A stretch of DNA of 64,000 nt from positions 259,573,863 to 259,637,862 of the forward strand of contig CP136064.1 in the NCBI GenBank assembly GCA_032622095.1, given 5' to 3'. Below, piece after piece: positions 13,008 to 64,000 of this stretch. Origin of the DNA: Siphonodentalium dalli (lineage: Eukaryota; Mollusca; Scaphopoda; Gadilida; Siphonodentaliidae). Position 1 is the first letter of the stretch; each line of letters starts with the position of its first letter. The position numbers were made by a program, and so were the translations under genes. The notes beneath the pieces were generated by a model that saw only the letters and a list, made by a program, of their open reading frames with translations, ran no database searches and was not told the DNA's origin.

Positions 13008-13340
13008 CAAGCCTTGAAATAGGGTACGTGTCTGTCATTTGCAGAATGAGGTCCCCAGAGGGTGAATTTAGTGATGCTACCCCGCATAGCGGGCTAGCAT
13101 CACCAAATTCACCCTCTGGGGACCTATTCTGCTTACACCTCAGCAGAATGAGGTTCCCAGAGGGTGAATTTGGTGATGCTAGCCCGATATGCGGGGTAGC
13201 ATAACTAAATTCACCCTCTGGGAACCTCATTCCCAGAGGGTGAATTTGGTGATGCTAGCCAGCTATGCGGGGTAGCATAACTAAATTCACCCTCTGGGAA
13301 CCTCATTCTGCAAATGACAGGCACCCTATTTCAAGGCTTG
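13008..13340. mobile_element. A2 MITE with perfect 8-bp target duplication, inside D
   Basis: CAAGCCTTGAAATAGGG faces CCCTATTTCAAGGCTTG. TCTATGAT lies at 13000-13007 and 13341-13348. Three hairpin modules instead of two are present, because the right module (CCCAGAGGGTGAATTTGGTG) occurs twice. Confidence 0.95.
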
Positions 13341-47200: not shown

Positions 47201-50200
47201 CAGATATCTCAGCCGATAACATACTAACTACCTAATAACCTCTGAGTACTTATTGAAGGGATATAGATCATGGTTCGCGCTGCCACTTGCCAAATTTGCC
47301 AATGGCAAAAATAATTCACATTTGGCAAAAAATATTTTCATTTGGCAAGTCACTTTTTAATTCCTCAATAAAGTTGAACAATATTTGTCAATCAATACGA
47401 TTCATCTCAGGAAATTCTCACAATATAATTATATTAGTGGTGTTGTATAAGGTCTAGGAAAAGTTAACACCATTTTGAAATGCAGTTAATCTGATAGAAT
47501 TAGTATTGATTGGTAAGGGATTACCCATATTTAGTGTGGCGGTGGTGTTTACATAGCTAATACCTCGAATGTATCCTTCTGATGAAGCAACCATTCTACA
47601 GTTTTATTATTCGGTTATTGGTTTATTTGTTGTGTGATAAACCATAAAATATGACTCAATGTTGCAGAAAATTTGCCAAATGAAAATATTTTTTGCCAAA
47701 TTCTTTTAGAATTGCCAAATGCTATTCCTGATAGCATTTGGCAAATTCTAAAAGAATTTGGCAAAAAAATATTTTCATTTGGCAAAAGTTAATTTTGGTC
47801 CACCGCGGACCCTGATATAGTCATTATCAATTTAAAATGAAAAATAACTGTTATCAGTTTATTTGCAGCATGTATCAATAAAGATTGTACTTTTGTTCTT
47901 ATAAGGTAAAAATAAAAGGCGTTTCTTTCACTGCTGTACGAAAATCAACCTGATATTATTTGTTATCACTTCGGTAAGTCTTGGGTCAGTTAGCACTTTT
48001 TTTTAAAACCGTTTCCCCATAAAAATGATTGGCTGTTAGCAAGCCTTGAAATAGCGTGTCTGTCATTTGCAGAATGAGGTCCCCAGAGGGTGAATTTAGT
48101 GATGCTACCCTGCATAGCAGGCTAGCATCACCAAATTCACCCTCTGGGAACCTCATTCTGCTGAGGTGTAAGCAGAATGAGGTCCCCAGAGGGTGAATTT
48201 GGTGATGCTAGCCCACTATGCGGGGTAGCATCACTAAATTCACCCTCTGGGGACCTCATTCTGCAAATGACAGACATACTATTTCAAGGCTTGGCTGTTA
48301 GAGACTTGCAGATTCTCCAATAATGAGGAGTGCTTGTCACCTTCTTACACACAATAGTAGGCCCACCAGGCAGTTTGATGTCATTAATTGATTGGCAGTA
48401 TACTAGTTAATTCCATTACCATGCATTCAAGTCTGAGTTTAGAGTGCCTGTCATTTGCATAATGAGGTCCCAGAGGATGAATTTAGTGACACTATCCCGC
48501 ACAGTGGGCTATCATCACCAAATTCACCCTCTGAGGACCTCAATCTGCATGGCCTCATATGCTATGGGAGACATACAATGTATACTCAGATTGAAGTTCC
48601 CATATGGTGAATATTGTGATGTAGACCCATTGGGAACCTCGATTATACAATATGTCGTCTGATAATTTGGGTATATAGAGAAACTAAACCAAAAAAGAAA
48701 TAGAATCTATGTGAAGAACTTTCTACAGAAATTTGATAATAAAGAAACTTTCCAGAAAAGATGAGGCCTAAGCAGAATGAGGTCCCAAGAGGGTGAATTT
48801 AGTTATGCTAGCCCGCTATGTGTGATATGGTCACTAAACTAACCCTCTGGGGACCTCATTATGCAAATGACAGGCGCACTAAACTGAGGCGTGATCTCAA
48901 TCTCATATTAAAAGCCAATCTATTTAAACTGAGGATTGCATGCATTCACATTGTGGTAATAAAAACCTATCTCTATATAAATCTAGTAGCCTGGGACAAG
49001 CTGTCTGGAGTTTCAGTCTGAAATACCAAAGTTCAGGCATGAAAAATGGTGCCGGACATTTGCAGAATGAGGTACCCAGAGGGTGAATTTAGTGATGCTA
49101 CCCCTGACAGCAGGCCAGCATCACTAAATTCAACTTCTGGGGACCACAATCTGTTTAGGCCTCGTCTCTGGTTTTCTGTGGTGGGAAATGTTCAAATAAT
49201 AAGTTTAAGAAACGAGCTACAGTAATTCCCTAAGTAATCGACCCCTTAACCACAGCAGAATTATGGGTAACTTTTCAGGATTTAGTCGGAAATATGGCTT
49301 GTTGCCATTCATCGGAAAGATCTCGACGAGAGCTTTCCGATGAATGGCAACAAGCCATATTTCCGACTAAATCCTGAAAAGTTACCCATAATTCTGCTGT
49401 GGTTAAGGGGTCGATTACTTAGGGCATTACTGTGTGGTCGTTTATTGAACTTATAAATGTGAATATTTTCTGAGAGATAACTACTCGTCAGTGAGTATTT
49501 AGTATAGATATTTTTAAGAAGTTAATAAGCTATTATCATAAATAAAGGCTCCCGAATGGAGCCTGTTTCAGTTAGTATATATAGTATTAAAGTAAAATAT
49601 TTGCTTGTTGCGTTCCATATATGTGGCTTGGGGAAGGGGGCTGTAGAAAATACAGTTTTATTGAAACTAATGTTCCCACAAATGGGCTGAAGTGCAGAGG
49701 CTGCGATCCTTAGGCTGCATGCTGCATACAGGCTCCCAAGGGGGTCCGTTAATGTGCCGCTGAATAAAGGCTCCCGAATTAAGTATATTTCTGTTAGTAT
49801 ATAGTAATATTTAAAGTAATATGCTGATTTTTTTCATTCAATATGTGCATGCGTATATGTGGGGTGTGAGTGTAGAAATACAGTTATTAGTGAAATAAAT
49901 GTTCCCACGCGCATACAAAAGCGAGACCATTCCATTTCTAATATAGAAATGAGAATTTGTTCATGTTCGCGGACACTAGAAAGTAACACAAAACATGGAT
50001 ATACCCATCATTTTGTGATGGGCAATCCCCTATATAGTCAATATATATATAACCCGTCATCTGTGTGTGTGTATCTGTGTGTTTGTGCGTCTATAATTCG
50101 GTTACGCTTTTGGCATGTTTATAACTTTTCAACCATAAGTCAAGCAAGTTATATTCATGAATTTTATGCCATATTCCTTTTTTTCCAGTTTACAGACTAC

Positions 50201-53200: not shown

Positions 53201-56200
53201 TGTCATTGTCCGGATTGACCACTCGTCATTCGTCCGTCTGTCTGTCTGTCCGTAGACACTTTACGAGTAATGCGATAACTCAAACATTTTCTATCCGATC
53301 GGAACCAAATTTTGTATATGGGTTTCTCAGCACAAAATACAGATCGAGTTCGAATTTGGATTTGATCTGAGTTTTTGATACAGAGTTATGGCCCTTTTTT
53401 TACTTAGAATTCACGCATTCTGCCATAACTCAAACATTTTTTATCTGATTGGAACCAAATTTGGTATGTGAGTTTCACAGCCCAAAATACAGATCGAGTT
53501 CGAATATGGGTTTGATCTGATTTATTTTAAAGGAGTTATGACCCTTTTTCGAGAAAAAAATGGGGGAAAAGAATGATTTTTTTAGATTTTTTTTTAACTT
53601 TTATACATGTAATAATAATAATAAAAAAATGCCATTGATTCTTTCATTTGTTTTCATTTAGATATTGATGATTATGATACAAGTTGATAAAAAGGTTCCC
53701 AATGTGTCCCTTTAAATATTTAGTAATGAACCCATAAATTAATAGTGTTAAGGTGCCATTCCACCACCGAGCCGTTTTTGCATACAGCACAGATCCCCCA
53801 TTAATGTCAAGTAGCAGTTAAATAACAATTCCTCCTGATATCTGATAAAAAACACATGTGTAGTTCACAATATTGGAGTGTACTGCCACTGGTTAATAGA
53901 ATGTTATTTATTTGGTGATAGACTGTATCCCACAGACCAGTTAATTATGATGGACAATCTGTGAAAGATTTCCTGATAAAACAGTGCTTTTAAAAATTTG
54001 CTGGATGCTGCATTGCACAGCTGAATATATAACTCTACAGATGGTCTGAGGTCATTTTAAATGTTATTGCATTAATAGAGATACCAGCATCAATATAAAC
54101 AATGTCTGTGATTTGTTGACAGCTCTGCTATATAATTGATATTAATGGGTCAGCAGTGAGGTGTCTTTATTTTGATGCGTGTTGTTGGTAGAATTTGAGA
54201 TATTATCATTGTAAACTTAAATTGGACTCTCTTAACCCAAGTATTCCATGTCCAGGTCACCTTTTTCACATTTAACCCAAGGTTGTGGTGTTGCAGCATT
54301 ACAGATCCTGTACCAGTGCATTCTCTTATATAAATGCGAGTGACCCATAAATACCAATAATTTGTTTTATGTACATTTGTCTATAATAGTACATAACAGT
54401 ATACTCTATAATTCAACATCAAAACTCTCATTTATGATTCCGATCATAGTAATTTACTATCGCCAAGGGATGGGTTAACATCTGCCGATCATGATCGGCC
54501 TCTCGTTTCTGTAATTTGTAATAAAACATTGCCACTAGAATCCATCTTGGATTTCAAATTTGAATCTATCGGCACACCCTGCAGCCTGCATTGTTTAGAA
54601 TTTCATTAGAAAACATGGCCACCAGTGGCCATCTTGGATTTTATTTTCTATATGTCTCTTCATGTTGATATCTAGTATGCACAGACATTTCAATTTTCCG
54701 CATTTCCTAATCGCTCCATTAACTGTAACACATTAAATTATCCCTCTCCATGTACAGTGTGATTGACACTTTCATTGAAAGTTTTCATTAATTGTGAGTC
54801 CACATTGTGGTGTCATATGAGAATTATCTCGTAAACTTCATTGCGAAATTCTTCCATATGCTTAAATACATATTAATGATGATATTTATATGTTCGCCTG
54901 TTCACATATCCTTTCTTGGCTTTGATTTCAGGTTTTACAAGAATACACAGAACTGCTTTCCTCAGCAAATAATTTCAGTACTTACAGGAAAGTTTTCCAG
55001 CAGTGTACAGGCTTCAAGATTCCTATATTGTAAGTATTACAGCAGTGTACAGGCTTCAAGATTCCTATATTGTAAGTATTACAGCAGTGTACAGGCTTCA
55101 AGATTCCTATATTGTAAGTATTACAGCAGTGTACAGGCTTCAAGATTCCTATATTGTAAGTATTACAGCAGTGTACAGGCTTCAAGATTCCTATATTGTA
55201 AGTATTACAGCAGTGTACAGGCTTCAAGATTCCTATATTGTAAGTATTACAGCAGTGTACAGGCTTCAAGATTCCTATATTGTAAGTATTACAGCAGTGT
55301 ACAGGCTTCAAGATTCCTATATTGTAAGTGACTTCATATTTACATCATCTGTGATTTTACTGCTGATGCTGAATTACAAGCCAAATATCATTGAGGTATT
55401 CACATGGCACCCGTTACAGGTATTGTGACAAAAGCTTCAAATACAACAATACAGGGTGTCCACTAGGTGTTGGGGGAATGGTACCCCTATGGCTGCAGGG
55501 GGAAATCTCAGTCCGGAAAAACTGAAAATATCTACTAGTATTTAGGTACCGTAAACTTTGTGATAAAACATCAAGTTAAATTCGCGATACAATACGTATA
55601 CTGACAATTTTATTGTGCGCCACCAACAATGGTAGAGGAATTGTTAAAATTTGAAATTTATTTTGACATCTGACCACTACATTCATGTTATACCATGAAA
55701 TATTCCTGATCATTCTTCAGTGGCTAATATCTGGACCTCGTCTACATAATCATAAACGAAAACCAGTCAGAACAGTGTTAGTTGAGAATGTAATCGCGAT
55801 GTATGAAGACAGAATCAACCATGTGGCTTTTAGTGACGTCCACTCTGATAACTTTCAGAATATGGAAATAATAATTGTCAATGTGTGCAGCCCTGAAAAG
55901 CATTCGTTTCCTGCCAAATGGTTCTCTAGTGGTCAGCGTTAATGCATGGGCAAATAAAATTATCTTCGTTTATTACTCCCTGTTGGTTTTATTTAGTAGC
56001 AGATACACGCTTGTGTTGTAGACATTAATCTGTGGATCGGGTAGGAACATATTATGGAGGGGAAATTTGGGTGAGAAGAAGGGACCTTAAAAGTGACCTG
56101 CTGCGCCCATAGCGGAGACCCTGAATATAGTATTGTGCTGTAATTTGACATCGCATGGGATGTGTTTACTCGCCAGTTTCTATCATGTTCAAGTATTTTT

Positions 56201-59200
56201 GCAAAAACATTGTGTTCGCATCAAAATCTCTTCTTATTAAAAAGATTGAATATTAGCCTACATGGTGAATATTACCCTACATGGTTGAATATTACCCTAC
56301 ATGGTTGAATATTACCCTACATGGTTGATTGAATATTACCCTACATGGTTGATTGAATATTACCCTACATGGTTGAATATTACCCTACATGGTTGATTGA
56401 ATATTACCCTACATGGTTGAATATTACCCTACATGGTTGAATATTACCCTACATGGTTGATTGAATATTACCCTACATGGTTGAATATTACCCTACATGG
56501 TGAATATTACCCTACATGGTTGATTGAATATTACCCTACATGGTGAATATTACCCTACATGGTGAATATTACCCTACATGGTTGATTGAATATTACCCTA
56601 CATGGTTGATTGAATATTACCCTACATGGTTGATTGAATATTACCCTACATGGTTGATTGAATATTACCCTACATGGTTGATTGAATATTACCCTACATG
56701 GTTGGCACATGAATAATAAAACATGCAATCCATGAGGCTTAAAAATGACAGCACAGAAAAAGCTCCACTCGCAATGCTTGCATAACATGCAATGATATTA
56801 TACTTAACCCTTCCAAGACTGGAGCTTCCTGAAATTTTGCGAAAACCATGTGCCAATGCATTCTCTTATATATACGAGTTGCCATATTTAAGAGAATGCA
56901 TTGGCCTAACAAATTTTATATTATTTTTTATATTTGTTAAAGAATGTAAGGAAAGTGAAAAAAAAATTAAAAAAAATTGTTAAAGAATGTAATAAATAAT
57001 GATAAAAATGATTCAATTTGTTAAATAATGTAAGAAAAAATAATAAAAATTGATAAAGAATGTGAGAAAAAATGATTAAAAAAATGACAAAAATTGTTAA
57101 AGAATGTAAGAAAAATTGATAAAAAAGTTTGTTAGGCCAATGCATTCTCTTATATATGCCTTGCATATATAAGAGAATGCATTAGCCTGACAATATTTAT
57201 CTTGATCTTGTAAGCCAGTGCATTCTCTTATTTATGCGAGGCTCCCTATGGGAGACTTGGATATATAATAGAATGCACTGGCAACTGGCACAGGATCTTT
57301 AATGCTGCACCAGCACAGCTCCCGTCATGAAAGGGTTAAAAATATTTCATTGTAACTTGAGTTTTTGAAGCCTGAACACATTTAAACAGATGTTTTTTTT
57401 TATCATATTCATTAAAATTTAATTTATTCATTTCAGAGGAATTCATTTGAAAGATCTTGTGATAATGAACATTGCCTCTGAAGATCAAGTTGATGGTAAC
57501 CTAATAAACTTCCGAAAAATGGCGCAACTCTCCGGTGTTTTCGAGGAAATAATGAAACTACAGTTCAATGAAAGTATTCCAGTTCAAGCAAATAAAGACC
57601 TGATTAATACATTACGAGTAAGTAATATGCTCAATACAGCAAAACAGGTTATCAATCAAGACTGAGAATAAGGTGCCTCACATTTACAGAATGAGGTCCC
57701 CAGAGGGTGAATTTAGTGACGCTATCCCATATACCGGGCTAGTATCACTAAATTCACCCACTGGGGACCTCATTCTGCTTAGGCCCCATCTTCTCTGGAA
57801 AGTATTTTTATTATCAAATTAACAAGTGTTTTTGTTATTATAGAAACTTCTTCACAAAGATTCTTTTTCTTATTTAGTTTAGTTTCTCTATATTCCCGGG
57901 TATAACAGGTATTAACAATGAAATATATTCTCTGCACTGTTTTTTATTTCAATGTTATAAAATTCCCGTTCAGAACATCAAAAAGGTCCCAGGTTTTGAA
58001 CTGCTGGTGTATGATCTATAGGGGCGTAACCAGAATATAGATTCATGGCATTTTCTAATCCAATGAAACACTTAGGGTGAGATAATTTCTTTTTTTGTGT
58101 ACATATAAAAAAATGAATAATGTCACTTGGTTCAAGTAACTATGTATTAATAATATTCGAAGAAAACTGTCTCACCTTAGCCCATGTCTTGGAAACATGC
58201 AAAATAACTTGGGTTACCTCTTTTACATCTTTCATTAGACATTCGGTACACTGAAGACGACATCTATGAGTTATCTCTGCCTCTTTTACAGCTTTCATTA
58301 GACATTCGGTACACCGAGAACGACATCTATGAGTTATTTCTGCCTCTTTTACAGCTTTCATTAGACATTCGGTACACCGAGGACGACATCTATGAGTTAT
58401 TTCTGCCTCTTTTACAGCTTTCATTAGACATTCGGTACACTGAAGACGACATCTATGAGTTATCTTTGCCTCTTTTACAGCTTTCATTAGACATTCGGTA
58501 CACTGAAGACGACATCTATGAGTTATCTTTGCCTCTTTTACAGCTTTCATTAGACATTCGGTACACTGAAGACGACATCTATGAGTTATCTCTGCCTCTT
58601 TTACAGCTTTCGTTAGACATTCGGTACACTGAAGACGACATCTATGAGTTATCTCTGCCTCTTTTACAGCTTTCATTAGACATTCGGTACACCGAGGACG
58701 ACATCTATGAGTTATTTCTGCCTCTTTTACAGCTTTCATTAGACATTCGGTACACTGAAGACGACATCTATGAGTTATCTCTGCCTCTTTTACAGCTTTC
58801 ATTAGACATTCGGTACACTGAAGACGACATTTATGACTTATCTCTGCCTCTTTTACAGCTTTCGTTAGACATTCGGTACACCGATGATGACATATATGAG
58901 TTATCTCTGCCTCTTTTACAGCTTTCATTGGACATTCGGTACACCGAAGATGACATCTATGAGTTATCTCTGGGCAGAGAACCAAAAACCACAGCTATGG
59001 TGAGTATAAATTAACCATTAACCTTTTCATGACGGGAGCTGCGCTGGCGCAACATTAAGACCCTGTGCCAATGCATTCTCTTATATATGCGAGTCGACCA
59101 TATATAAGAGAATGCATTGTCCTAATAAATTTTTTTATCAATTTTTCTTTCATTCTTTAACAATTTCTGTCATTTTGTATAATTATTTCTTACATTCTTT

Positions 59201-62200
59201 ATCAATTTTTATAATTTTTTCTTACATTCTTTAACAATTTTTATCATTATTTCTTACATTCTTAAAAAAGTTTTATCATTTTATTCATTTTTTTCTTACG
59301 TTCTTTAACAATTATAAAAAATAATATAAAATTTGTTAGGCCAATGCATTCTCTTATATATGCGAGGCGACCTATGGTAGTGTTGCATATATAAGAGAAT
59401 TCATTGGCACAGGGTTTTCACAAATATTCAGGAACCTCTCGTCATGAAAGGGTTAACCATGAAGATTTTTCTTTAATCATGTTCATGATGGATTTATTAG
59501 GTATAGCAAATTTTTGTCTCTCAACTAAGATCAAGCTTTAAAAAAGGAAATATCATGTCTTTTCAGAAACTGCTTTTCTCTGTCTCAAAAAGTGTCGTCA
59601 CATAAGAAATGAACCAGAATGAACAGTGGTTTTATTGTCAATGTGGTATTTTGACCATGAGAAAAATTCAGCATACTTGAAGAACCCCGTTCCATGCTAT
59701 GTCATGATTGCATGATAGGCTGGACCTTTCAAAATTTCCAAACAGTAGGATTAATAACATAGGAGATATACGGTTATTATATGAGGGTGGACTTACTTTT
59801 TTTTTTAGGTATTTAATATCTACCTTCTAATAGGACAGTAAAAGGAGCCATTTTTAGAACAGGCGACCTGTGGAAATGTTTGGAAGAGAGATAACTCTAA
59901 CTTGTTAGCACCCTCCATCAATGCAAATGTCATTTAAAATCAAAGATTTTGCTCGGCTGCATCAGAATAAATCTATTTATTATGCATTTATTGACAAATA
60001 ATATGTACAATATTCGGTTTTATTCACAAAAATAGATATTTGTAGTCTTGAAGGGTTTTAAATAAAAATTATGTTATTGTAAATCTGGCCCGACAGAGAT
60101 ACACTATCTTTATAGATATTGACCTGAAATGAAGTTGGAATAAATATTGTTAATTATTGAACTTATTGGTGATATTGCAACCTTGAATGCTTTTATGAGG
60201 GAATTTATGAATGACAGACTATTTTATCTCACCATTCGTTACATCACTTCATTTTATTCCAGCCAACCACACCCACAAAACCAGTTGTGTTTGCTGATTG
60301 GCTAGCTGGAATTCGACCACCTGATCCAGACACAATAAACCAGCATGTCCATGATATGGTCGACGTGAGTAAATGGAGTATTCAAGAACCATGGCTTGAA
60401 ATAGTGTGTCTGTCATATGCAGAATGAGGTCCCCATGAGGGTGAATTTAGTGAAGCTACCCTGCAAAGTAGGCAAAATTCAACCTCTGGGGACCTCTGCT
60501 TCGGCCTCATCTGCTGGGAAGTATCTATAGTCTCAAATTAACATTGTTTTTAGTTACTTTTTTATATTTTATATGGGTGAACATCACAAACTTCAACTTG
60601 GGAACTTCAAATCTGATCCTAGGTCTCTCATAGCAGTTGAGGCCTCAGCAGATTAAAGTCCTCAGAGCGTGAATTTGGTGGGCTAGCGTCTCTAATTTCA
60701 CCCTCTGGGGACCTCATTATGCAATTTACAATCAAGGCTTGTCAAGAACATTTTATGTTATCTCTGGCAAAATCGGGGTACTCTTGAATTTTTTACCATT
60801 CTAGTTTTTGAATTATTTTTTACCAAGGTTCGATTTTTTTGTTTAGAAAAAAGGCAACCACCAAAGAAAACCGTCTTATTTCGGGGGATGTGTTGTCGGT
60901 GACCTTTTATTCTATTTTTTATTCAGAAATCGGTAAAGCCGGTAAATTTTTAGTGTCAATTTGTGTTTCAATGCCATAAATATTTTTATATCAGTCCGTT
61001 CTATTACTGCAGGCTGTTTTTAAGAACTATGACCATGATAGAGACGGCTTCATTTATATTAGCCATATGAGTCCATTCTATTACTGCAGGCTGTTTTTAA
61101 GAACTACGACCACGATAGAGACGGCTTCATTTCACACGAGGAGTTTGATCTGATCGCTGGAAACTTCCCATTTATTGACTCTTTCTGTGTCCTTGACACA
61201 AACCAGTAAGTATAATATCTTTATGTTTAATTGGACCACGAGCATTGCTCAGTTTCCACACATAGAATATAGTATGGAGAACTATTGCCATAATAGACAG
61301 GTTCAGCCGCATGTAAATGTAACTTGTAACATATGTGTTACTATGGTATTGCTATGAAGATGCACATGGTGGAAACAGTCACATGATTTCTTAGTGCCAA
61401 ACCTACACCTTTATAGATATCGGTCAATGTCTAAAGATGTAAGTAATGGTTGGGTGGATAAAATAAGATAAGTTTTATTGACAATCAGGTCACCTTCACA
61501 GGTAGAGTAATTTGGATAAACAACAAACAAACAAATAAACAGAACACATGAGAAAGTATTAAGTGATTGATGTTGATTGGTGAAATAAAGTGATACAACT
61601 TGCTTATTGTTCGTGTCCAGCTTAATGTTCAAGTCCAACAGTTATCTATATAGGATACGGCAATACAGCATTAACCCTTTGAGTGCCAGGGGCCGATATT
61701 ATCGGCCCTAAACCTACACAATAAGTCTGTTAAAGAATATAATAAAATATATTAAAATTGTAAAAAAAAAAATTAAAAAAAATTAAAATAAAAAAATTGT
61801 TAAGCCAATGCATTCTCTTATATATGCGAGGCGACCTATGGTCGACTCGCATATATAAGAGAATGCATTGGCACAGGGTATATGGGTTGATACAAAAATC
61901 GGACCTGGCACTCAAAGGGTTAATGGGCCTACATGGTACTATATCATAAGAGTTACATGAAAGATTGATATACCGGCTTCATATGCTGATGGTCACGGCC
62001 ATTTCCCAGCTGTTTTAAATTTTTCACACAGAAGTGAAATAAATGCTCTTTATTTCTACCATATCAGGAATATACTAACACAGAACGATCTTTTCTGTTC
62101 CATGTCGTGCATTTGGCTGTTGTAAAACAATGTGTTCAAGGTTGTATATTTTATAACTTCAATGCATGTTTCCAGTACATATAATGCGTAGTTCAAGGTA

Positions 62201-63138
62201 GTTCAAGTATTTATCGACCTATTTCAATACCGAGAACATTTCAAAAGCGAATATTATTACAGTAATGCCCTAAATAATCGACTCCTTAACCACAGCAGAA
62301 TTATGGGTAATTTTTCAGGATTTGGTCGGAAATATGGCTTGTTGCCATTCATCGGAAAGCTATCTCCGATGAATGGCAACAAGCCATATTTCCGACTAAA
62401 TCCTGAAAAATTTCCCATAATTCTGCTTTGGTTAACCCTTTACCCAACAAACCGGCCAAAACCGGCCAAATAAAGCTTCAACAGCCTAAAATATCTTCGG
62501 TCTGTCTCAATAGAACCATACAAATATGGATATCATTGGAACCGGCTCCTTGACCACATTGTGATAGTTACAGTTAGCCCTGTGCCAATGCATTCTCTTA
62601 TATATGCGAGTCGACCATAGGTCGCCTCGCATATATAAGAGAATGCATTGGCCTAAAAAAAATCTTTTTTTAACACTTTTTACCATTTTTTCTTACATTC
62701 TTTAACAATTTTATAATTTTTAATGTGTTAAGCCAATGCATTCTCTTATATATGCGAGGCGACCTATGGTCGACTCGCATATATAAGAGAATGCATTGGC
62801 ACAGGGCCATTCTGTTGGGTAAAGGGTTAAGGAGTTGATTATTTAGGGCATTACTGTAGGTTAGTTTGGATTGCAAACGGCCATGTGGCTTTAATTATTC
62901 CTCTTTGCTACAAGTTTATACTGCACCTTGGACACAAAATTTGAAAATAAATTATCCAAATTATTATTTTGTTCACAAATATTTATGATTTGTTTTCAGA
63001 GATGGTGTCATAAGTAAAAAGGAGATGAAAGAGTACTTCATCCGAGCCAATTCTCATGCCTTACGAAACAGCTTCAAACATGACTTTCATGAAATCACAT
63101 ACTTCAAACCAACGTTCTGTATTCACTGTACTGGCCTG
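23146..63138 (+). CDS. RASGRP: RasGRP (CalDAG-GEF) gene, partial, 11 exons
   Basis: The spliced product is about 476 residues. In order it carries the end of RasGEF-N, the CDC25 catalytic domain (around [20 protein letters not shown] through GREPKTT), a linker, two EF hands and the start of a C1 domain. Family knowledge: RasGRPs load GTP on Ras/Rap at membranes, recruited by diacylglycerol through C1 and modulated by Ca2+ through the EF hands. Coding segments: 23146-23278, 31487-31624, 45751-45904, 50189-50362, 52257-52373, 54932-55029, 57437-57617, 58922-58999, 60263-60364, 61090-61205, 63000-63138. Phases agree at every junction. The 5' exons were not found and the C-terminus is beyond the window. 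Three exons have tandem-duplicated edges containing splice sites. The subtype (RASGRP1-4) is not resolved; an invertebrate single-copy orthologue is likely. Confidence 0.93.
23934..24378 (-). repeat. Possible tRNA-derived SINE head split by the A insertion
   Basis: On the - strand, TAGCTCAGTCGGTAAGGTGC (about 24351-24370) fits a Pol III A box and GGTCCGAGACC (23934-23944) is close to a B box. They lie on either side of the A element and in the right order. With A removed, spacing would be about 75 bp, longer than in a tRNA. Tentative. Confidence 0.35.
23952..24331. mobile_element. Family A MITE, long form
   Basis: CCTGTCATTTGCAGAATGAT to CAGGCACATAATCTCAGG. The spacer is shortened but both hairpins are recognisable. 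Confidence 0.83.
24594..25106. mobile_element. C3 MITE hosting a C1 insertion
   Basis: ACCCTTTCATGCTGGGAGGC and GATGCAGCAT, interruption, then AAGATCCTGGGTCAGTGTAT and hairpin remnants to CTCCAGTCATGGAAGGGTTAA (25106). Confidence 0.88.
24630..24911. mobile_element. C1 MITE nested in C3 at TTAA, hairpins partly deleted
   Basis: TTAA is present at 24630-24633 and 24908-24911. Removing 24634-24911 restores GCATTAAAGATCCTG of C3. The A/T loop and half of each hairpin are missing compared with 5785-6186. Confidence 0.93.
25150..25201. mobile_element. Family B MITE, smallest copy (52 bp)
   Basis: ACAGTAATGCTCTAAATAAT then, almost at once, ATTTAGAGCATTACTGT. Only the termini remain. Confidence 0.88.
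25265..25525. mobile_element. C2 MITE
   Basis: CCCTTTGAGTGCCAGGTCGA faces GGCACTCAAAGGGTTAA. Only one GCCAATGCATTCTC hairpin is left. The loop is extremely T-rich (25389-25435). Confidence 0.9.
25803..26042. mobile_element. A2 MITE with 8-bp target duplication
   Basis: CAAGCCTTGAAATAGGG faces CACTATTTCAAGGCTTG. AATGACCT lies at 25795-25802 and 26043-26050. Confidence 0.95.
26221..26375. mobile_element. Family A MITE, left half
   Basis: CAAGCCTCGAAATATTGTG, one hairpin (CTAGAGGGTGAATTTGGTG), then GGGAGACCTAGGATCAGATT, after which similarity ends. Confidence 0.83.
26385..26636. repeat. Family E repeat
   Basis: CGTCCATCCGTCCGTCCGTC and CGATGAAATTTGGTATGCAG are E signatures. It leads directly into the 26-bp array. 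Confidence 0.7.
26637..26897. repeat. 26-bp minisatellite, about 10 copies
   Basis: CACCATGGGGGTATCCCAGC plus ACCCGT per unit. The period is 26 (26640, 26666...). The unit has no stop in any + frame, which makes three overlapping open frames of 85-173 codons. These are artefacts of the array. Confidence 0.96.
27007..27066. repeat. 14-bp x 4 tandem repeat
   Basis: TTTACATCTACTAA repeated, with one T-to-G change. Confidence 0.9.
27109..27368. mobile_element. C2 MITE
   Basis: TTAACCCTTTCAGTGCCAGG faces CCTGGCACTGAAAGGGTTAA, with TTAA at both ends. One C-type hairpin is near the right end. CCGATCTCATCGGCCC forms a small stem near the left. Confidence 0.93.
27692..28256. mobile_element. Family F element, copy 1
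   Basis: A perfect hairpin centred near 27780 (GTCCAATATGACTTTTCACC arm, GACACACCAGTGTC centre) is followed by a non-palindromic tail with GGGAGTCCAATATGACTTTC twice. Copy 2 (36019-36572) is highly similar along its full length. Confidence 0.88.
28337..28503. mobile_element. Family B MITE, shortened palindrome
   Basis: ACAGTAATGCCATAAGTAAT to ACTTAGGGCATTAATGTA. The centre GGCTTGTTGCCATATT is asymmetric. Confidence 0.9.
28512..28704. repeat. 48-bp x 4 tandem array from family H
   Basis: CACAGAACGATTCCTATTCA and GGGAAGTGTTCAGATAATAA repeat every 48 bp. The following 28705-28760 (GTGGTCGTTTGTTGAACTTA) is the opposite arm of H, as at 49436-49460. Confidence 0.93.
29104..29395. repeat. Family E2 repeat with G17 run
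   Basis: TTATTATACCCCTGCAACGA, G run 29128-29144, TATACTGGAATCGG, then TTTGCACAGATATTTAGTAC. It parallels 7961-8290. Confidence 0.82.
29527..29682. mobile_element. Family B MITE, shortened palindrome
   Basis: ACAGTAATGTCCTAAATAAT faces ATTTAGGACATTACTG, with centre GTCGGAAATAAGCCATATTTCC. The C-to-T change near the left end is mirrored at the right end. Confidence 0.92.
29855..30244. mobile_element. C1 MITE, reverse orientation
   Basis: TTAACCCTTTACCCAACAGA at the left, GGGTAAAGGGTTAA at the right. Two complete inverted hairpins. Confidence 0.95.
30595..30994. mobile_element. C1 MITE, reverse orientation
   Basis: TTAA both ends. Nearly identical to 29855-30244 and 62432-62830. GAATCGAGCC/GGCTAGAATC in its left flank is a small hairpin (30551-30579). 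Confidence 0.95.
31487..31624 (+). CDS. RASGRP: RasGRP exon: FWISKFP segment
   Basis: Bounded by TTTTATTTTAG and the donor GTAAGT. It encodes [17 protein letters not shown] and then [14 protein letters not shown], matching the RasGRP stretch that begins '[FY]WI..FP' between RasGEF-N and the catalytic domain. It enters with one base of a codon and leaves with two (GT). A D element with nested MITEs starts 62 bp after the donor. The following intron is about 14 kb and contains the LINE. Confidence 0.9.
31721..32166. mobile_element. Family A MITE, long form, in D
   Basis: CAAGTCTGAGTTTAGTG faces CACTAAACTCAGGCTTG. Both hairpins and the full spacer (TTGGCAGACGACACATTGC) are kept. Confidence 0.92.
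32425..32851. mobile_element. C3 MITE in D
   Basis: TTAACCCTTTCAGCTGATGC to CCAATCATGAAAGGGTTAA. The loop contains reiterated TTTTTTCTTACATTCTTTAA units that expand its length. Confidence 0.92.
32915..33824. other. Intron sequence, with a 26-bp x 3 repeat at 33613-33689
   Basis: GTGGGTTGTAGGAGAGGGCT plus AACAGC occurs at 33613, 33639 and 33665. The 33180-33560 stretch is comparatively GC-rich with a 91-codon - strand frame lacking recognised motifs. I do not call it a gene. Confidence 0.6.
33825..34076. mobile_element. A2 MITE
   Basis: CATGCCTTGAAATAGTG faces CACTATTTCAAGGCTTG. The flanks AATAAGTG and AATAAGTT are an 8-bp target duplication with one mismatch. Both hairpins lost bases at the AGAGGG/CCCTCT step in a complementary way (CCCCAGGGGTGAATTT against AAATTTACCCCTGGGG). 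Confidence 0.93.
34113..34373. mobile_element. C3 MITE, degenerate
   Basis: TTAACCCTTCCATGACCGGA to GCTTCGCTCCCATCATGAA. The hairpins are mutated. Confidence 0.8.
34374..35596. other. Intron sequence with a CpG-rich hairpin at 34865-34974
   Basis: GAATCTTTTATCG...GGATATATTTCGC (34865-34911) is inverted at 34928-34974 around GAGAGCGTAGCTCGA. It is locally rich in CG compared with its surroundings. The rest shows nothing recognisable. Confidence 0.75.
35677..35888. mobile_element. Family B MITE in D
   Basis: ACAGTAATGCCCTAAATAAT to TTATTTAGGGCATTACTGTA, with near-complete arms. Confidence 0.92.
36019..36572. mobile_element. Family F element, copy 2, in D
   Basis: It interrupts D between GTTGCATAATA and TAATACTTATTGG, which are contiguous in the D copy at 32335-32350. 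ATAATA on both sides suggests a short target duplication. Confidence 0.9.
36652..36740. repeat. 21-bp x 4 array from D inner stem
   Basis: CATTCCACTTCTCCCTGATA plus A repeats every 21 bp, ending in AACCAAACAGGGAGAAGTGA. CTTCTCCCTGATAAC is the D stem sequence. Confidence 0.93.
36927..37080. repeat. 43-bp x 4 tandem array
   Basis: CATGGTTTGCAACACGTCCA and ATGGTTTAACAAATATTATT begin at 36929, 36972, 37015 and 37058. The last is diverged. Confidence 0.94.
37194..37333. mobile_element. Family B MITE, right arm deleted
   Basis: The left arm runs to CGGAAAGCTCTG, then GCTGTGGTTAAGGAGTC to GGATTACTGTA. It is similar in design to 4106-4245. Confidence 0.88.
37334..37745. repeat. 33-bp x 11 array from an E-type repeat start
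   Basis: GTGTCGACGTCCGGATTGAC plus TTATATACATATA repeats at about 33 bp from 37371 to 37714. The flanks CATACCATTGTATGGTAC and TCGTTCATCCGTCCATCCGT equal the E copy at 53168-53255, where the unit occurs once. 33 is divisible by three, so frames stay open on both strands. Confidence 0.94.
37763..38162. mobile_element. C1 MITE, complete
   Basis: TTAA both ends. CTTTACCCAACAGAAGGGCC and both inverted hairpins are intact. It is a good consensus copy. Confidence 0.95.
38245..38779. repeat. Family G repeat, copy 2
   Basis: GGTCAGCGCTGGACCGAAAT to GGCAAGTGGCAGCTCGAACC. The interior CAATCACCGGACAATAAAAT is shared with 18950. Confidence 0.88.
39025..40448. mobile_element. Family A MITE, long form, split by an E repeat
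   Basis: CAAGTCTGAGTTTAGTG faces CACTAAACTCAGGCTTG. The A spacer breaks after ATAGATTCTATTGCTTTT and resumes with TTTAGTTTCTCTATATCCC. Confidence 0.9.
39219..40192. repeat. Family E repeat with five internal units of about 172 bp
   Basis: It opens TATACGCCCTTTTGAAAAA and GGTCTGTCCGTCCGTCCGTC and closes GAGAGGGCGTATATTGCACG. TCCGGATGATAACTTTAGT or a variant begins at about 39313, 39484, 39655, 39828 and 40000. Each unit proceeds through AAATTTGGTATG and GAATTTGGGTTCCG to GAGTTATGCCCC. No protein-coding frame. Confidence 0.9.
40621..40871. mobile_element. A2 MITE
   Basis: AAGCCTTGAAATAGTGT faces CACTATTTCAAGGCTTG. The two hairpins are inverted copies with a single difference (CCCGC/CCCAC). 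No target duplication is visible at this copy. Confidence 0.92.
41167..41436. repeat. Family E repeat, left of the LINE
   Basis: CATATTATGTTATTGGTCCA, GTTTACTAGCACAAAATACA and AATGATAACTTTAGTAAGTC. It continues at 44107-44170 on the other side of the LINE. Confidence 0.85.
41437..44106 (-). mobile_element. 5'-truncated L1/Tx1-like non-LTR retrotransposon
   Basis: Read on the - strand, this has the 3' part of an ORF2 polyprotein, a 3' UTR, AATAAA (41461-41466 reversed) and an A tail of about 19 nt (T run 41437-41455). It is truncated at about 44100-44106 inside the fingers region of reverse transcriptase, the usual result of incomplete target-primed reverse transcription. It sits inside an E repeat: the host text GTTTAC / TAGCCCAAAATA resumes on either side. 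No clear target duplication was found. Confidence 0.93.
41817..44105 (-). pseudogene. LINE ORF2 fragment (reverse transcriptase and C-terminal zinc knuckle), one stop
   Basis: One long frame covers the reverse transcriptase core and C-terminus. In order it has [18 protein letters not shown], the catalytic [27 protein letters not shown], the active-site [10 protein letters not shown] (YADD at about 43455-43466), GLKINPSKC, and the C-terminal C-x2-C-x8-H-x4-C knuckle ([18 protein letters not shown], about 42150-42190). It is broken once, by TGA at 43173-43175 where a Trp codon would be expected. The endonuclease domain is missing. L1/Tx1 is judged from motif style only. Confidence 0.9.
44461..44772. 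mobile_element. Family A MITE, right part
   Basis: GATCAGATTGAAGTTCCCC, GAAGCCTAAGCAGAATGAAA, one hairpin (GGGTGAATTTGGTAATGCTA) and GCAAATGTCAGACACACTA. The first hairpin is absent. Confidence 0.83.
44822..45019. repeat. 25-bp x 8 tandem array
   Basis: TTGACAGCCACACACCGTTA plus ATCCG every 25 bp (44824, 44849, 44874...). Confidence 0.95.
45020..45750. other. Intron sequence without recognised features
   Basis: Apart from the pentamer run (about 45712-45733) forming the pyrimidine tract before the exon, nothing is recognised. Confidence 0.55.
45751..45904 (+). CDS. RASGRP: RasGRP exon: start of CDC25 catalytic domain
   Basis: The acceptor is TCATATGTAG, preceded by a TATCC pentamer run at about 45712-45733, and the donor is AAC|GTAAGT. 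It encodes 51 full codons including [20 protein letters not shown] and [12 protein letters not shown]. This is the diagnostic RasGRP start of the RasGEF domain (family: F[DN]HLEP.EL[AS]E.LTYLE). Confidence 0.95.
46346..46805. mobile_element. C4 MITE, second copy
   Basis: TGTGACCCGCCATATCAAAT to GGCGGGTCACA. The flanks CTATA and TATGG hint at a TA-type target. It is inserted in an A element, whose text resumes at 46806 (TATGGGAGACCTAGAATCAG). Confidence 0.93.
46806..47097. mobile_element. Family A MITE, right part, disrupted by C4
   Basis: GGGAGACCTAGAATCAGATT, a spacer with ATTATGCATTTTATCTTCTG, a collapsed hairpin and TATATCCAGGCTTGG. Confidence 0.83.
47272..47813. repeat. Family G repeat, copy 3, reverse orientation
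   Basis: GGTTCGCGCTGCCACTTGCC to TTTGGTCCACCGCGGACC. An extra inverted stretch (AATTCTAAAAGAATTTGGC) near the right end makes a local palindrome around 47700-47760. Confidence 0.88.
48040..48293. mobile_element. A2 MITE with perfect 8-bp target duplication
   Basis: CAAGCCTTGAAATAGCG faces ACTATTTCAAGGCTTG. GCTGTTAG lies at 48032-48039 and 48294-48301. Confidence 0.95.
48428..48892. mobile_element. Family A MITE, long form
   Basis: CAAGTCTGAGTTTAGAGTG faces GCACTAAACTGAGGCGTG. Point mutations are scattered and the spacer is complete. Confidence 0.9.
49033..49162. mobile_element. Family A MITE, left half, abutting H
   Basis: GGACATTTGCAGAATGAGGT, one hairpin, GTTTAGGCCTCGTCTCTGG, then H sequence. 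Confidence 0.8.
49163..49530. repeat. Family H foldback with B inserted at its centre
   Basis: GGGAAATGTTCAAATAATAA (49181) is inverted as TTATTGAACTTATAAATGTG (49440). ACTACTCGTCAGTGAGTATT follows. Related text lies at 8560, 28690-28760 and 63235-63330. Confidence 0.75.
49219..49433. mobile_element. Family B MITE, full palindrome
   Basis: ACAGTAATTCCCTAAGTAAT faces ACTTAGGGCATTACTGT. The arms run complete to the centre CGGAAAGATCTCGACGAGAG. Confidence 0.93.
49531..50188. other. Intron sequence, partial direct repeat
   Basis: AATAAAGGCTCCCGAAT...TTAGTATATA...AGTAATAT is found at about 49541-49600 and again at 49763-49825. No family recognised. Confidence 0.6.
50189..50362 (+). CDS. RASGRP: RasGRP exon: CDC25 domain, [15 protein letters not shown]
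   Basis: The acceptor is TTTTTTTCCAG and the donor AAG|GTGAGG. It has 58 codons in phase 0/0. It contains [20 protein letters not shown] and [14 protein letters not shown], core helices of the RasGEF catalytic fold. An upstream open frame from 49859 runs into the exon by chance. An A-family MITE starts 58 bp after the donor. Confidence 0.95.
50421..50829. mobile_element. Family A MITE, long form, near splice donor
   Basis: CAAGCCTTGAAATCGTTTG faces CAAACTATTCAAGGCTTG. The flanks ATCTGTGT and ATCAGTGT are an 8-bp duplication with one change. The hairpins are decayed, suggesting age. Confidence 0.88.
50870..51075. repeat. Family E repeat fragment
   Basis: CGGATAATATCTTCAG, ACAGGTCAAGTTTAAATAT, GAATTATGGCCCTTGT. 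Confidence 0.65.
51076..52256. repeat. Intron with ATGGCCACCAGCAGCCAT-type repeats
   Basis: CACAATCATGACCATACA-like sequence covers 51130-51530. From 51550, blocks with CATGGCTGCCTGCAGC, CATGGCCACCAGCAGCCATC and ATCTTGGATTTTACT recur every 150-170 bp (51630, 51783, 51950). The same blocks return at 52735, 53045 and 54600. Confidence 0.65.
52257..52373 (+). CDS. RASGRP: RasGRP exon: CDC25 domain, [14 protein letters not shown]
   Basis: The acceptor is TTGTTGTTTCAG and the donor AAA|GTATGT. It has 39 codons in phase 0/0. It encodes [20 protein letters not shown] and SALARLYKT. The [12 protein letters not shown] motif is close to invariant in RasGRPs and lies in the Ras-contacting part of the domain. 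Confidence 0.96.
52620..53165. repeat. Continuation of the ATGGCCACCAG repeat group
   Basis: CAGCAGCCATCTTGGATTTC (52748), TGTCATGGCTGTTGA twice (52684, 52880) and CACCAGTGGTCATCTTGGAT (53050). Non-coding. Confidence 0.65.
53166..53570. repeat. Family E repeat (CATAGTATGG subtype)
   Basis: GTTTACCCAACCATAGTATG, GTGTCATTGTCCGGATTGAC, TTCGTCCGTCTGTCTGTCTG, then two units with AACCAAATTTGGTATG and GAGTTATGGCCCTTTTT. It is the unexpanded counterpart of 37334-37745. Confidence 0.82.
53571..54931. other. Intron sequence; C3 remnant near 54270-54350
   Basis: A fragment with GTGTTGCAGCATTACAGATC and CCAGTGCATTCTCTTATATA is a C3 remnant. TCCATCTTGGATTTC blocks lie at 54540-54650. TTCAACATCAAAACTC...CGATCATAGTAATTTACTAT matches 38925-38970, a further dispersed repeat. 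Confidence 0.6.
54932..55029 (+). CDS. RASGRP: RasGRP exon with tandemly duplicated donor edge
   Basis: The acceptor is TTTGATTTCAG. The frame reads [20 protein letters not shown] and then FKIPIL, leaving TT of a split Leu codon completed by the next exon (A GGA ATT, then H-L-K-D-L). The donor chosen is the first GTAAGT (55030). The last 32 exon bases plus 10 intron bases are repeated seven more times downstream. In the exon frame TTG-TAA forms across each donor, so using any later donor would end the protein right after IPIL. The first donor is therefore the only productive one. Confidence 0.93.
55003..55331 (+). repeat. 42-bp x 8 tandem array carrying exon end plus splice donor
   Basis: Units begin at 55003, 55045, 55087, 55129, 55171, 55213, 55255 and 55297 and are essentially identical. 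Each holds exon sequence (TGTACAGGCTTCAAGATTCC...), the donor ATT|GTAAGT and TATTACAG, a possible weak acceptor. Donor GTs lie at 55030, 55072, 55114, 55156, 55198, 55240, 55282 and 55324. Near-perfect identity suggests recent expansion, or a collapsed or artefactual assembly. Long open frames on both strands here are shadows of a period divisible by three. Confidence 0.97.
55332..56249. other. Intron sequence; an unrecognised 85-codon frame
   Basis: A frame at 55685-55942 contains [20 protein letters not shown]. It shows no repeats and no family motif. It may be chance or a decayed transposon fragment. Nothing else is recognised. Confidence 0.5.
56250..56703. repeat. Tandem array of GAATATTACCCTACATGGT, about 21 copies, three unit lengths
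   Basis: Units of 19 (GAATATTACCCTACATGGT), 20 (extra T) and 24 bp (extra TGATT) are mixed. The last six are all the 24-bp form, pointing to the newest expansion at that end. Confidence 0.95.
56804..57339. mobile_element. C3 MITE with expanded A-rich loop
   Basis: TTAACCCTTCCAAGACTGGA to CCCGTCATGAAAGGGTTAA. The loop repeats TTGTTAAAGAATGTAAGAAA several times (56935-57120). The right shoulder has a second hairpin pair. Confidence 0.9.
57437..57617 (+). CDS. RASGRP: RasGRP exon: HLKDL segment
   Basis: The acceptor is TTCATTTCAG and the donor CGA|GTAAGT. One base completes the split Leu, followed by 60 codons beginning [20 protein letters not shown] and ending [12 protein letters not shown]. 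The family equivalents are G-V-H-L-K-D-L and [LV]-[EQ]-A-N-[KP]-D-L. A C3 MITE ends 97 bp upstream and a partial A element starts 39 bp downstream. Confidence 0.95.
57657..57905. mobile_element. Family A MITE, left half, 39 bp from a donor
   Basis: CAAGACTGAGAATAAGG, one good hairpin (GCTATCCCATATACCGGGCT centre), then TTAGGCCCCATCTTCTCTGG to TTCTCTATATTCCCGGG. Confidence 0.85.
57906..58225. other. Intron sequence before the 63-bp array
   Basis: No repeat or exon recognised. Confidence 0.5.
58226..58972 (+). repeat. 63-bp x 12 tandem array carrying splice acceptor plus exon start
   Basis: The anchor GACATTCGGTACA recurs every 63 bp exactly from 58238 to 58931. Each unit is 51 exon bases plus 12 intron bases (CCTCTTTTACAG). 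Potential exon starts are 58292, 58355, 58418, 58481, 58544, 58607, 58670, 58733, 58796, 58859 and 58922. The first copy (58229) has ACAT instead of ACAG and so lacks the acceptor. Read through in the exon frame, the acceptor translates as LPLLQ, and the array is an uninterrupted series of 21-residue repeats with few replacements (E/D, S/F, D/N). Confidence 0.97.
58922..58999 (+). CDS. RASGRP: RasGRP exon: [17 protein letters not shown], acceptor edge multiplied
   Basis: The minimal exon runs from the most 3' acceptor (CTCTTTTACAG, ending 58921) to ATG|GTGAGT and encodes 26 codons: [17 protein letters not shown] and then GREPKTTAM. The family equivalent is L-S-L-D-x-Y-x-T-E-D-[DE]-[IL]-Y, the end of the CDC25 domain. 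Eleven further copies of its 5' edge precede it, ten of them with an intact acceptor and all in the same frame. Longer forms of the exon would remain coding. A C3 MITE begins 18 bp after the donor. Confidence 0.93.
59018..59456. mobile_element. C3 MITE 18 bp downstream of a splice donor
   Basis: TTAACCTTTTCATGACGGGA to CGTCATGAAAGGGTTAA, TTAA at both ends. The loop has reiterated TTTTTCTTACATTCTTTAAC. Confidence 0.92.
59457..60262. other. Intron sequence without recognised features
   Basis: AT-rich, no repeat family and no exon-like segment. Confidence 0.5.
60263..60364 (+). CDS. RASGRP: RasGRP exon: proline linker before the EF hands
   Basis: The acceptor is ATTTTATTCCAG and the donor GAC|GTGAGT. 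It has 34 codons in phase 0/0. [20 protein letters not shown] and [14 protein letters not shown] match the RasGRP linker pattern P-x-x-P-x-K-P-V-V-x-x-x-W, then K-x-D-P and H-[IV]-x-x-[ML]-V. An A MITE with a perfect 8-bp target duplication is inserted 17 bp into the following intron. Confidence 0.94.
60390..60741. mobile_element. Family A MITE with perfect 8-bp target duplication
   Basis: CATGGCTTGAAATAGTG to ACAATCAAGGCTTG. TCAAGAAC lies at 60382-60389 and 60742-60749. The hairpins are eroded. Confidence 0.93.
61013..61089 (+). repeat. 77-bp partial duplication of the EF-hand exon start with its acceptor
   Basis: The unit holds 43 exon bases starting GCTGTTTTTAAGAACTA and 34 intron bases ending CTATTACTGCAG. 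It is repeated immediately downstream as the real exon start. The exonic differences are third-position changes. 77 is not a multiple of three, so use of the upstream acceptor (AG at 61011-61012) with read-through would shift the frame. The upstream copy is best called an exon fragment. Confidence 0.93.
61090..61205 (+). CDS. RASGRP: RasGRP exon: EF hand 1
   Basis: The acceptor is CTATTACTGCAG and the donor CCA|GTAAGT. It encodes [19 protein letters not shown] and [15 protein letters not shown]. The Ca2+ loop [12 protein letters not shown] has all canonical ligands (positions 1, 3, 5 and 12). The second EF loop starts at its end (D-T-N-Q) and is completed by the next exon. Confidence 0.95.
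61206..61670. other. Intron sequence without recognised features
   Basis: A run of ACAAACAAACAAATAAAC lies near 61523-61541. Nothing else was identified. Confidence 0.5.
61671..61923. mobile_element. C2 MITE
   Basis: TTAACCCTTTGAGTGCCAGG faces CCTGGCACTCAAAGGGTTAA, TTAA at both ends. GGCCGATATTATCGGCC stem at left, one C-type hairpin at right. Confidence 0.95.
62259..62857. mobile_element. Family B MITE split by a C1 insertion
   Basis: The left arm and most of the right arm run to GCTTTGGTTAA (62435). The B end resumes GGAGTTGATTATTTAGGGCA (from 62831) to CATTACTGTA. Confidence 0.95.
62432..62830. mobile_element. C1 MITE inserted in B with TTAA duplication
   Basis: TTAA at 62432-62435 and 62827-62830. 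B normally has a single TTAA here (GGTTAAGGAGTCG), so the TTAA is duplicated and the element proper is 62436-62826. Confidence 0.97.
63000..63138 (+). CDS. RASGRP: RasGRP exon: EF hand 2 and start of C1 domain
   Basis: The acceptor is TTGTTTTCAG and the donor CTG|GTATGT. It completes EF loop 2 ([12 protein letters not shown], canonical ligands) and continues [20 protein letters not shown]. It then gives [17 protein letters not shown], the start of a C1 zinc finger with the first His and the C-x2-C pair. The remainder of C1 lies in exons beyond the window. Confidence 0.95.
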
Positions 63139-63502
63139 GTATGTACAATTAACTTACCGCCCAGTTCATATAGAATGATGCTGGCTTACTGAATGATATC
63201 TACTGGCTGGAAAGTGATCTTAACATTTATGTACTAAATACTCATTGATGAGTAGTTTCTCGTAGGAAACGTTGAAATAATAAGTTAAAAAAACGAGTTG
63301 AACTTATTATCTGAACATTTCCCATTTATCAATATGAATTCTTCTGCACTTGTGTAATCATTTTGTCTGGCTGTCGTCTGCTCCTGTATCCTTAACATCC
63401 CTCCAAATGAACAATAGACCGTTCCAATGTATAGTTTGGGAGAATCCATTTAGTAACGAAAGTGTTAAGAGTTGTATTTCAAATCTAATATTTGTTGCTA
63501 AA
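63139..63502. other. Intron sequence with family H remnant
   Basis: AAATACTCATTGATGAGTAG, AATAATAAGTTAAAAAAACG and GTTGAACTTATTATCTGAAC (63235-63325) form an H foldback. The rest is unassigned. Confidence 0.65.
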
Positions 63503-64000
63503 AACATGGATTCTAAATGGTCGTGAGCTGCTAACTTTTGTTTTTGATTCACCAGCAGACGGTGAACACATTTATATGGACCATGTTGTTTTGTTGCTTT
63601 AACATGGATTCTAATTGGTTGTGAGCTGCTAACTTTTGTTTTTGATTCACCAGCAGACGGTGAACACATTTATATGGACCATGTTGTTTTGTTGCTTAAA
63701 CATGGATTCTAATTGGTCGTGAGCTGCTAACTTTGGTTTTGGATTCACCAGCAGACGGTGAACACATTTATATGGACCATGTTGTTTTGTTGCTTAAACA
63801 TGGATTCTAATTGGTCGTGAGCTGCTAACTTTTGTTTTTGATTCACCAGCAGACGGTGAACACATTTATATGGACCATGTTGTTTTGTTGCTTAAACATG
63901 GATTATAATTGGTTGTGAGCTGCTAACTTTTGTTTTTGATTCACCAGCAGACGGTGAACACATTTATATGGACCATGTTGTTTTGTTGCTTTAACATGGA
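63503..64000. repeat. 98-bp tandem array, at least 5 copies, continuing past the window
   Basis: ACATGGATTCTAATTGGTCG, TGAGCTGCTAACTTTTG, ACCAGCAGACGGTGAACACA and TATGGACCATGTTG repeat from 63504, 63603, 63701, 63799, 63897 and 63995. It lies in the intron after the C1-start exon. Confidence 0.95.

Follow-up and report, generated by a model that had tools for sequence, protein, structure and literature searches.

A tandem array at the acceptor edge of a RasGRP exon in Siphonodentalium dalli, a probable member of an abundant class of exon-edge minisatellites

Tandem arrays whose units lie across exon-intron boundaries have been described in amphioxus as mirages; their units repeat either the acceptor or the donor edge of an exon, and many of them carry the AG or the GT (PMC3087553). 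In the Adh3 and globin mirages, one of which is of the acceptor type, regular splicing is seemingly undisturbed, as judged by RT-PCR, and exon-edge arrays are a proposed source of new introns (PMC3087553). Intron gain is also described through the tandem duplication of exon stretches that carry proto-splice sites (PMC2891723, PMC2812944), and variable repeats at an exon-intron boundary may form novel introns (PMC2812944). The mirage cases treated in PMC3087553 are from cephalochordates, and no exon-edge array case beyond that paper was found in the literature, as judged by titles or the beginnings of abstracts.

The array analysed here lies in a RasGRP gene of the scaphopod Siphonodentalium dalli, in a window of 64,000 nucleotides (contig CP136064.1, forward strand, positions 259,573,863 to 259,637,862) to which the coordinates below refer. 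As in the amphioxus mirages, its unit spans the exon-intron boundary, and the unit lengths are comparable (those in Adh3 are 10-72 bp; PMC3087553).

The RasGRP gene and its acceptor-edge array

The gene is identified as RasGRP from its predicted protein. A CDC25-type RasGEF domain is matched by PDB entries 4l9m, 6axf and 6axg and by PF00617 at two exons of the window, and the product of exon B joined to the last copy of the repeated exon edge matches RasGRP1 (4l9m) with an E value of 2.5e-16, the join lying inside the aligned stretch. An EF-hand motif at 61090 and a C1 motif near 63000-63150 are assigned by eye only. The features that concern the array are as follows.

54932-55029, plus strand: RasGRP exon A, ending in CCTATATT before GTAAGT, phase 2
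54990-55329, plus strand: donor-edge array, 8.1 x 42 bp, exon end and GTAAGT in every unit (TRF and reading)
57437-57617, plus strand: RasGRP exon B, end of the CDC25 domain, phase 0 donor with CGA before GTAAGT
58217-58972, plus strand: acceptor-edge array, 12 x 63 bp (TRF and reading of units)
58217-58279, plus strand: unit 1, without its acceptor (ACAT where the other units have ACAG)
58280-58909, plus strand: units 2-11, acceptors intact and in frame, exon bases beginning at 58292 + 63n
58922-58999, plus strand: authentic last exon copy, 78 nt, phase 0 start, GTGAGT donor
60263-60364, plus strand: next RasGRP exon, by reading frame and splice sites
60988-61132, plus strand: second acceptor-edge duplication, 1.9 x 77 bp, EF-hand exon (TRF and reading)
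61090-61205, plus strand: EF-hand exon read from the second acceptor copy, which is in frame; EF-hand named by eye from a 12-residue loop

The acceptor-edge array is built of 12 head-to-tail units at a spacing of exactly 63 bp with no indels; TRF gives 12.0 copies with 95% matches and 0% indels, and the units diverge from the TRF consensus at 0-5 of 63 bases. In each unit, 12 intron bases, CCTCTTTTACAG, precede 51 exon bases, and together they reproduce the acceptor edge of the RasGRP exon. The AG dinucleotide is present in 11 of the 12 units, all of which keep CTCTTTTACAG, and unit 1 reads CTCTTTTACAT. This structure is beyond what chance can give, and it agrees with the preliminary description, in which twelve 63-bp units (51 exon plus 12 intron bases) without a frame break and a first unit deprived of its AG had been reported; only the start, at 58217, lies slightly before the 58226 given there. 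A two-unit query of the array DNA against the same genome, in a search that skips very common words, returned no second locus.

A single frame is open through all 12 units, and one open frame runs from the chosen intact acceptor to the donor after 58999, whichever acceptor is the start; all 10 intact upstream acceptors are both open and in frame. Across the unit joins, CTG CCT CTT TTA CAG reads as LPLLQ, the translation previously proposed for the pyrimidine tract, and blocks of 17 residues are linked by PLLQ. Because exon B ends in phase 0 and the last copy begins in phase 0, any choice of acceptor keeps the frame. From acceptor 2 to acceptor 12 the number of added modules would fall from 10 to 0, at 21 residues per unit, which upholds the earlier count of 0 to 10 possible in-frame modules; the exon measures 78 nt from the last acceptor (58922) and 708 nt from the acceptor of unit 2.

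Three edge arrays are present in this one gene (54990-55329, 58217-58972 and 60988-61132), and only the middle one figures in the preliminary description. Exon A joins exon B in frame as IPIL-GIHLKDL, a join read by eye, and the first unit of the donor-edge array is followed by seven identical ones. Read-through of the first donor yields IPIL and then TAA, so that only the first donor fits the protein. In the EF-hand duplication, the first acceptor is out of frame and runs into a stop, and the second copy continues the EF-hand loop. TRF arrays of period 10 or more make up 17% of the window bases.

It is highly improbable that the array or its copy number is an artefact of assembly. The genome is represented by a single assembly, and one amphioxus mirage was apparently misassembled in a draft genome (PMC3087553); however, the units are distinguished by specific bases, the full length of the array is just 756 bp, the genome of 2.23 Gb is contained in nine very large contigs, and like arrays occur at many independent exons.

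Elsewhere in the window, a 98-bp tandem repeat of 5.2 copies occupies 63491-64000, up to the window end, and two long open frames on the minus strand at 41817-44105 have the look of a LINE-type reverse transcriptase (QYADDTTLI by eye). A palindromic element (GCAGAATGAGGTCCCC...), perhaps a MITE, is present in several copies across the window, for example at 13041-13232, 40647-40842 and 48069-48264, and one copy adjoins the exon in a locus of the sample described below (L045).

Exon-edge arrays elsewhere in the genome

Exon edges were surveyed in 200 loci of the same genome (labels L###), whose 204 Pfam matches to six families were treated as exons: all 21 RasGEF matches outside the window, 23 of 85 myosin head, 40 of at least 152 tyrosine phosphatase, 80 of 123 kinesin, 20 of 33 RhoGEF and 20 of 63 UCH matches, with RasGAP (6 matches) left out. 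The sample was picked roughly by rank with many near-identical copies skipped, and it is not random; L004 and L007 are paralogues of L003, and one flank of L159 is 200 bases short.

Donor-edge arrays, in which the exon-end/donor junction is copied at least one more time downstream, are found at 17 of the 204 matches (two exons of L003, and L004, L011, L024, L051, L090, L093, L109, L111, L117, L125, L131, L136, L151, L160 and L181, the last a marginal case with 3 exon bases copied). The count stood at 19 before a recheck; L007, where the exon end is copied and the donor is kept in the last copy only, and L121, a duplication within coding sequence with no further junction copy, were dropped. Long donor-edge arrays stand in the kinesin exons of L109 (516-944, 14 x 30 bp) and L111 (587-1016, 12.6 x 34 bp; both in coding orientation).

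Acceptor-edge arrays are found at five of the 204 matches, with few or no exon bases copied in L109, L139 and L156, about 51 in L151 and 16 in L172. Arrays inside the match (L070, L157), upstream copies without AG (L135) and arrays near an edge but not across it (the 67-bp array of L011, L045, the 26-bp array of L160, and L176) were not counted. TRF coverage amounts to 8.5% at the donor-side match end, 6-9% in the far flank and 2.3% at the acceptor-side end, in a blurred profile whose exon ends are Pfam match ends and not proven splice sites. In a separate count, match-end positions lie inside a TRF array in 17 of 204 cases on the donor side versus 5 of 204 on the acceptor side (P 0.017). Donor edges in this sample are thus about as open to arrays as the intron, and acceptor edges are several-fold depleted.

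Exon-edge arrays are therefore a frequent, genome-wide habit, and the RasGRP array is not a one-off; it is most probably one ordinary case among the many exon-edge minisatellites of this genome. Of the potential repeat-length switch put forward in the preliminary description, the sequence part is upheld, in that the ten intact upstream acceptors are in frame, open and of ordinary strength; the switch itself is a candidate. As the lead reading, however, a special adaptive switch is set back by the two further arrays in the gene and the many elsewhere.

The reading that we favour, with moderate confidence, is that the array is a mirage-type exon-edge minisatellite that is normally removed with the intron, the last acceptor being used. 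The acceptor edge may first have been copied by a short duplication that arose between the end of the intron (GGGTTACCTCT) and an exon stretch resembling it (GAGTTATCTCT), and the copies would then have grown to twelve units by slippage or unequal exchange. By analogy with the comparison arrays treated below, the spliceosome most likely joins 57617 to 58922, the acceptor nearest the downstream donor, which would give the normal 78-nt exon, and the remaining units would leave with the intron. Some leakage to the upstream acceptors, at 21 residues each, would be tolerable because the frame is unbroken. The two additional edge arrays in the gene and the 17 donor-edge and 5 acceptor-edge arrays among the 204 matches argue for this reading, and so does the seemingly regular splicing of the amphioxus Adh3 and globin mirages (PMC3087553). 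The depletion on the acceptor side (5 versus 17 of 204) argues against it, since it suggests that in some cases acceptor copies upstream do harm and are therefore in use.

Acceptor choice and codon positions

Six acceptor arrays serve for comparison, namely those of L109, L139, L151, L156 and L172 and that of the RasGRP EF-hand exon. These arrays have 28 upstream acceptors, recognised by the AG, and from each of them the reading frame runs into a stop before the exon is complete; 13 of the 28, all TTTCAG, belong to L172 in the piece read. Because the upstream acceptors lead to stops, the six exons need the last acceptor, assuming that the genes work. On that assumption the last of several similar acceptors is chosen in these arrays, and neither tandem acceptors nor a kept AG imply isoform ladders. 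Retention of the AG was rejected as a sign of use, since in L139 and L172 it is also retained in upstream copies that lead to stops. Together with the 78 nt obtained from the last acceptor, against 708 nt, the 28 stop-bound acceptors argue for removal of the RasGRP array with its intron.

In L172 (1-416, coding orientation), 14 tandem TTTCAG acceptors in 28- and 31-bp units precede the ubiquitin protease exon, in an array that reaches the edge of the piece; the exon carries a GNTC motif, which we take to be the catalytic cysteine site of the protease.

The open frame of the RasGRP array, which results from the unit length of 63 and from the absence of a stop in the 12 intron bases, is weak evidence by itself. 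The absence of stops was set aside as such evidence, with a probability of 0.53 by chance. A random unit of this kind is estimated roughly at 0.19 to be in frame and open, which gives a probability of 0.77 for at least one such array among seven and makes one in-frame open array unremarkable.

A position matrix from 163 inferred acceptors of the same genome gives units 2-12 scores of 5.3-6.8 (44th-58th percentile) with no clear winner, and other AGs in unit 1 are at the 4th percentile or lower; the 11 intact acceptors are typical for the genome. Under exon definition, as in long-intron genes, the acceptor closest to the donor (58922) would be preferred, for an exon of 78 nt and not 708. Under the scanning rule, by which the first AG downstream of the branch point is taken (PMC1431707), unit 2 would be favoured here, which counts against removal of the whole array. 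The comparison arrays favour the exon-definition rule over first-AG scanning, and the preliminary description's own alternative, in which the downstream acceptor dominates, is the better fit to these six arrays, with room left for a ladder by the third-codon-position excess described below.

Translation of the array is, in our view, the less probable reading, though one of appreciable probability. In that case splicing would go to the first intact acceptor, at 58292, or in graded measure to several, and up to 10 extra 21-residue modules would be inserted between the CDC25 and EF-hand parts of RasGRP, either as a constant insert or in isoforms of stepped length. The scores of units 2-12 lie close together, and 10 of 10 intact upstream acceptors lead into an open frame without a shift, compared with 0 of 28 in the six comparison arrays. 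However, the other acceptor arrays in the genome must use the last acceptor, and an exon of 708 nt, judged by the exon-definition rule, is long beside flanking introns of about 1.3 kb. Additionally, the AlphaFold model of 58292-58999 is of low confidence (pLDDT 60.5, pTM 0.47). If the upstream acceptors were used, the first copy could take the native position, and the others would lie ahead of the EF-hands as a linker of at most 210 residues.

The distribution of variants over codon positions bears on the same question. Units 1-12 contain 13 variants in 11 columns; 10 of the 13 are at third positions and 8 are synonymous, with 4.2 expected (P 0.0016 and 0.019, respectively), and by column the third-position share is 8 of 11 (P 0.009). 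The share is 9 of 12 without unit 12, 6 of 9 without units 11 and 12 (P 0.042) and 5 of 8 without units 1, 11 and 12 (P 0.088). For units 2-11, 8 of 11 variants are at third positions (P 0.007) and 7 of 11 are synonymous (P 0.026), a bias that an array removed unread does not need.

As a control, the downstream copies of 14 donor arrays, whose reading is not expected, have 11 of 29 variants at third positions, or 7 of 21 when restricted to in-register copies; the 14 arrays held some out-of-register copies (L011, L160), and the inclusion of five more arrays in the in-register count left all among-copy numbers as they were. The RasGRP share of 9/12 exceeds these two values with one-sided Fisher P values of 0.034 and 0.025, respectively, and the share of 8/11 with 0.053 and 0.040. 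In the positive control, columns in which only the real exon differs from the copies are mostly third positions (8/9; 12/16 in register). These contrasts argue for translation, but the variants are few, the test was devised after the data were seen, the P values are borderline and the effect is weaker without units 11 and 12. Moreover, the looser contrast of 10/13 RasGRP variants with 20/40 donor-array variants, counted with the real exon, gives P 0.082, and, because some variants also occur in the authentic copy, the bias could have been brought in by renewed copying of the real exon. The third-position excess is therefore a hint, and the upstream acceptors may sometimes be used and translated, at 21 residues per unit.

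A mirage turned coding, with ten 21-residue modules or a ladder of 0-10 after CDC25 in which selection kept the frame and left mostly synonymous changes, is a tentative and rather unlikely extension of these observations. If true, individuals or cells that differ in minisatellite copy number would also differ in the length of RasGRP.

Relation to known systems

With a repeated donor edge in about one of every twelve sampled exons, the genome offers a natural experiment on spliceosome choice among near-identical sites, and the depletion of acceptor edges relative to donor edges bears on the direction and rules of that choice. In-frame exon-edge arrays, as in RasGRP, could additionally supply new repeat domains.

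The recurrence of such arrays in other genes of the same genome is a further likeness to the amphioxus mirages. The present case differs in its gene, RasGRP, in its twelve units and in its uninterrupted frame, and it is known from the DNA of one assembly. The amphioxus genomes are smaller than the present 2.23-Gb assembly. A search for a mollusc haemocyanin family was negative both in this genome and in every control genome, and is uninformative on placement. In coding VNTRs and tandem acceptor systems such as NAGNAG, alternative in-frame acceptors add defined residue blocks; the step in RasGRP is 63 nt and not 3, and its upstream acceptors are candidates only. As in intron gain by tandem duplication (PMC2891723, PMC2812944), extra splice sites arise and coding copies can become intron; unlike there, an intron already exists at the RasGRP site, and the array adjoins it.
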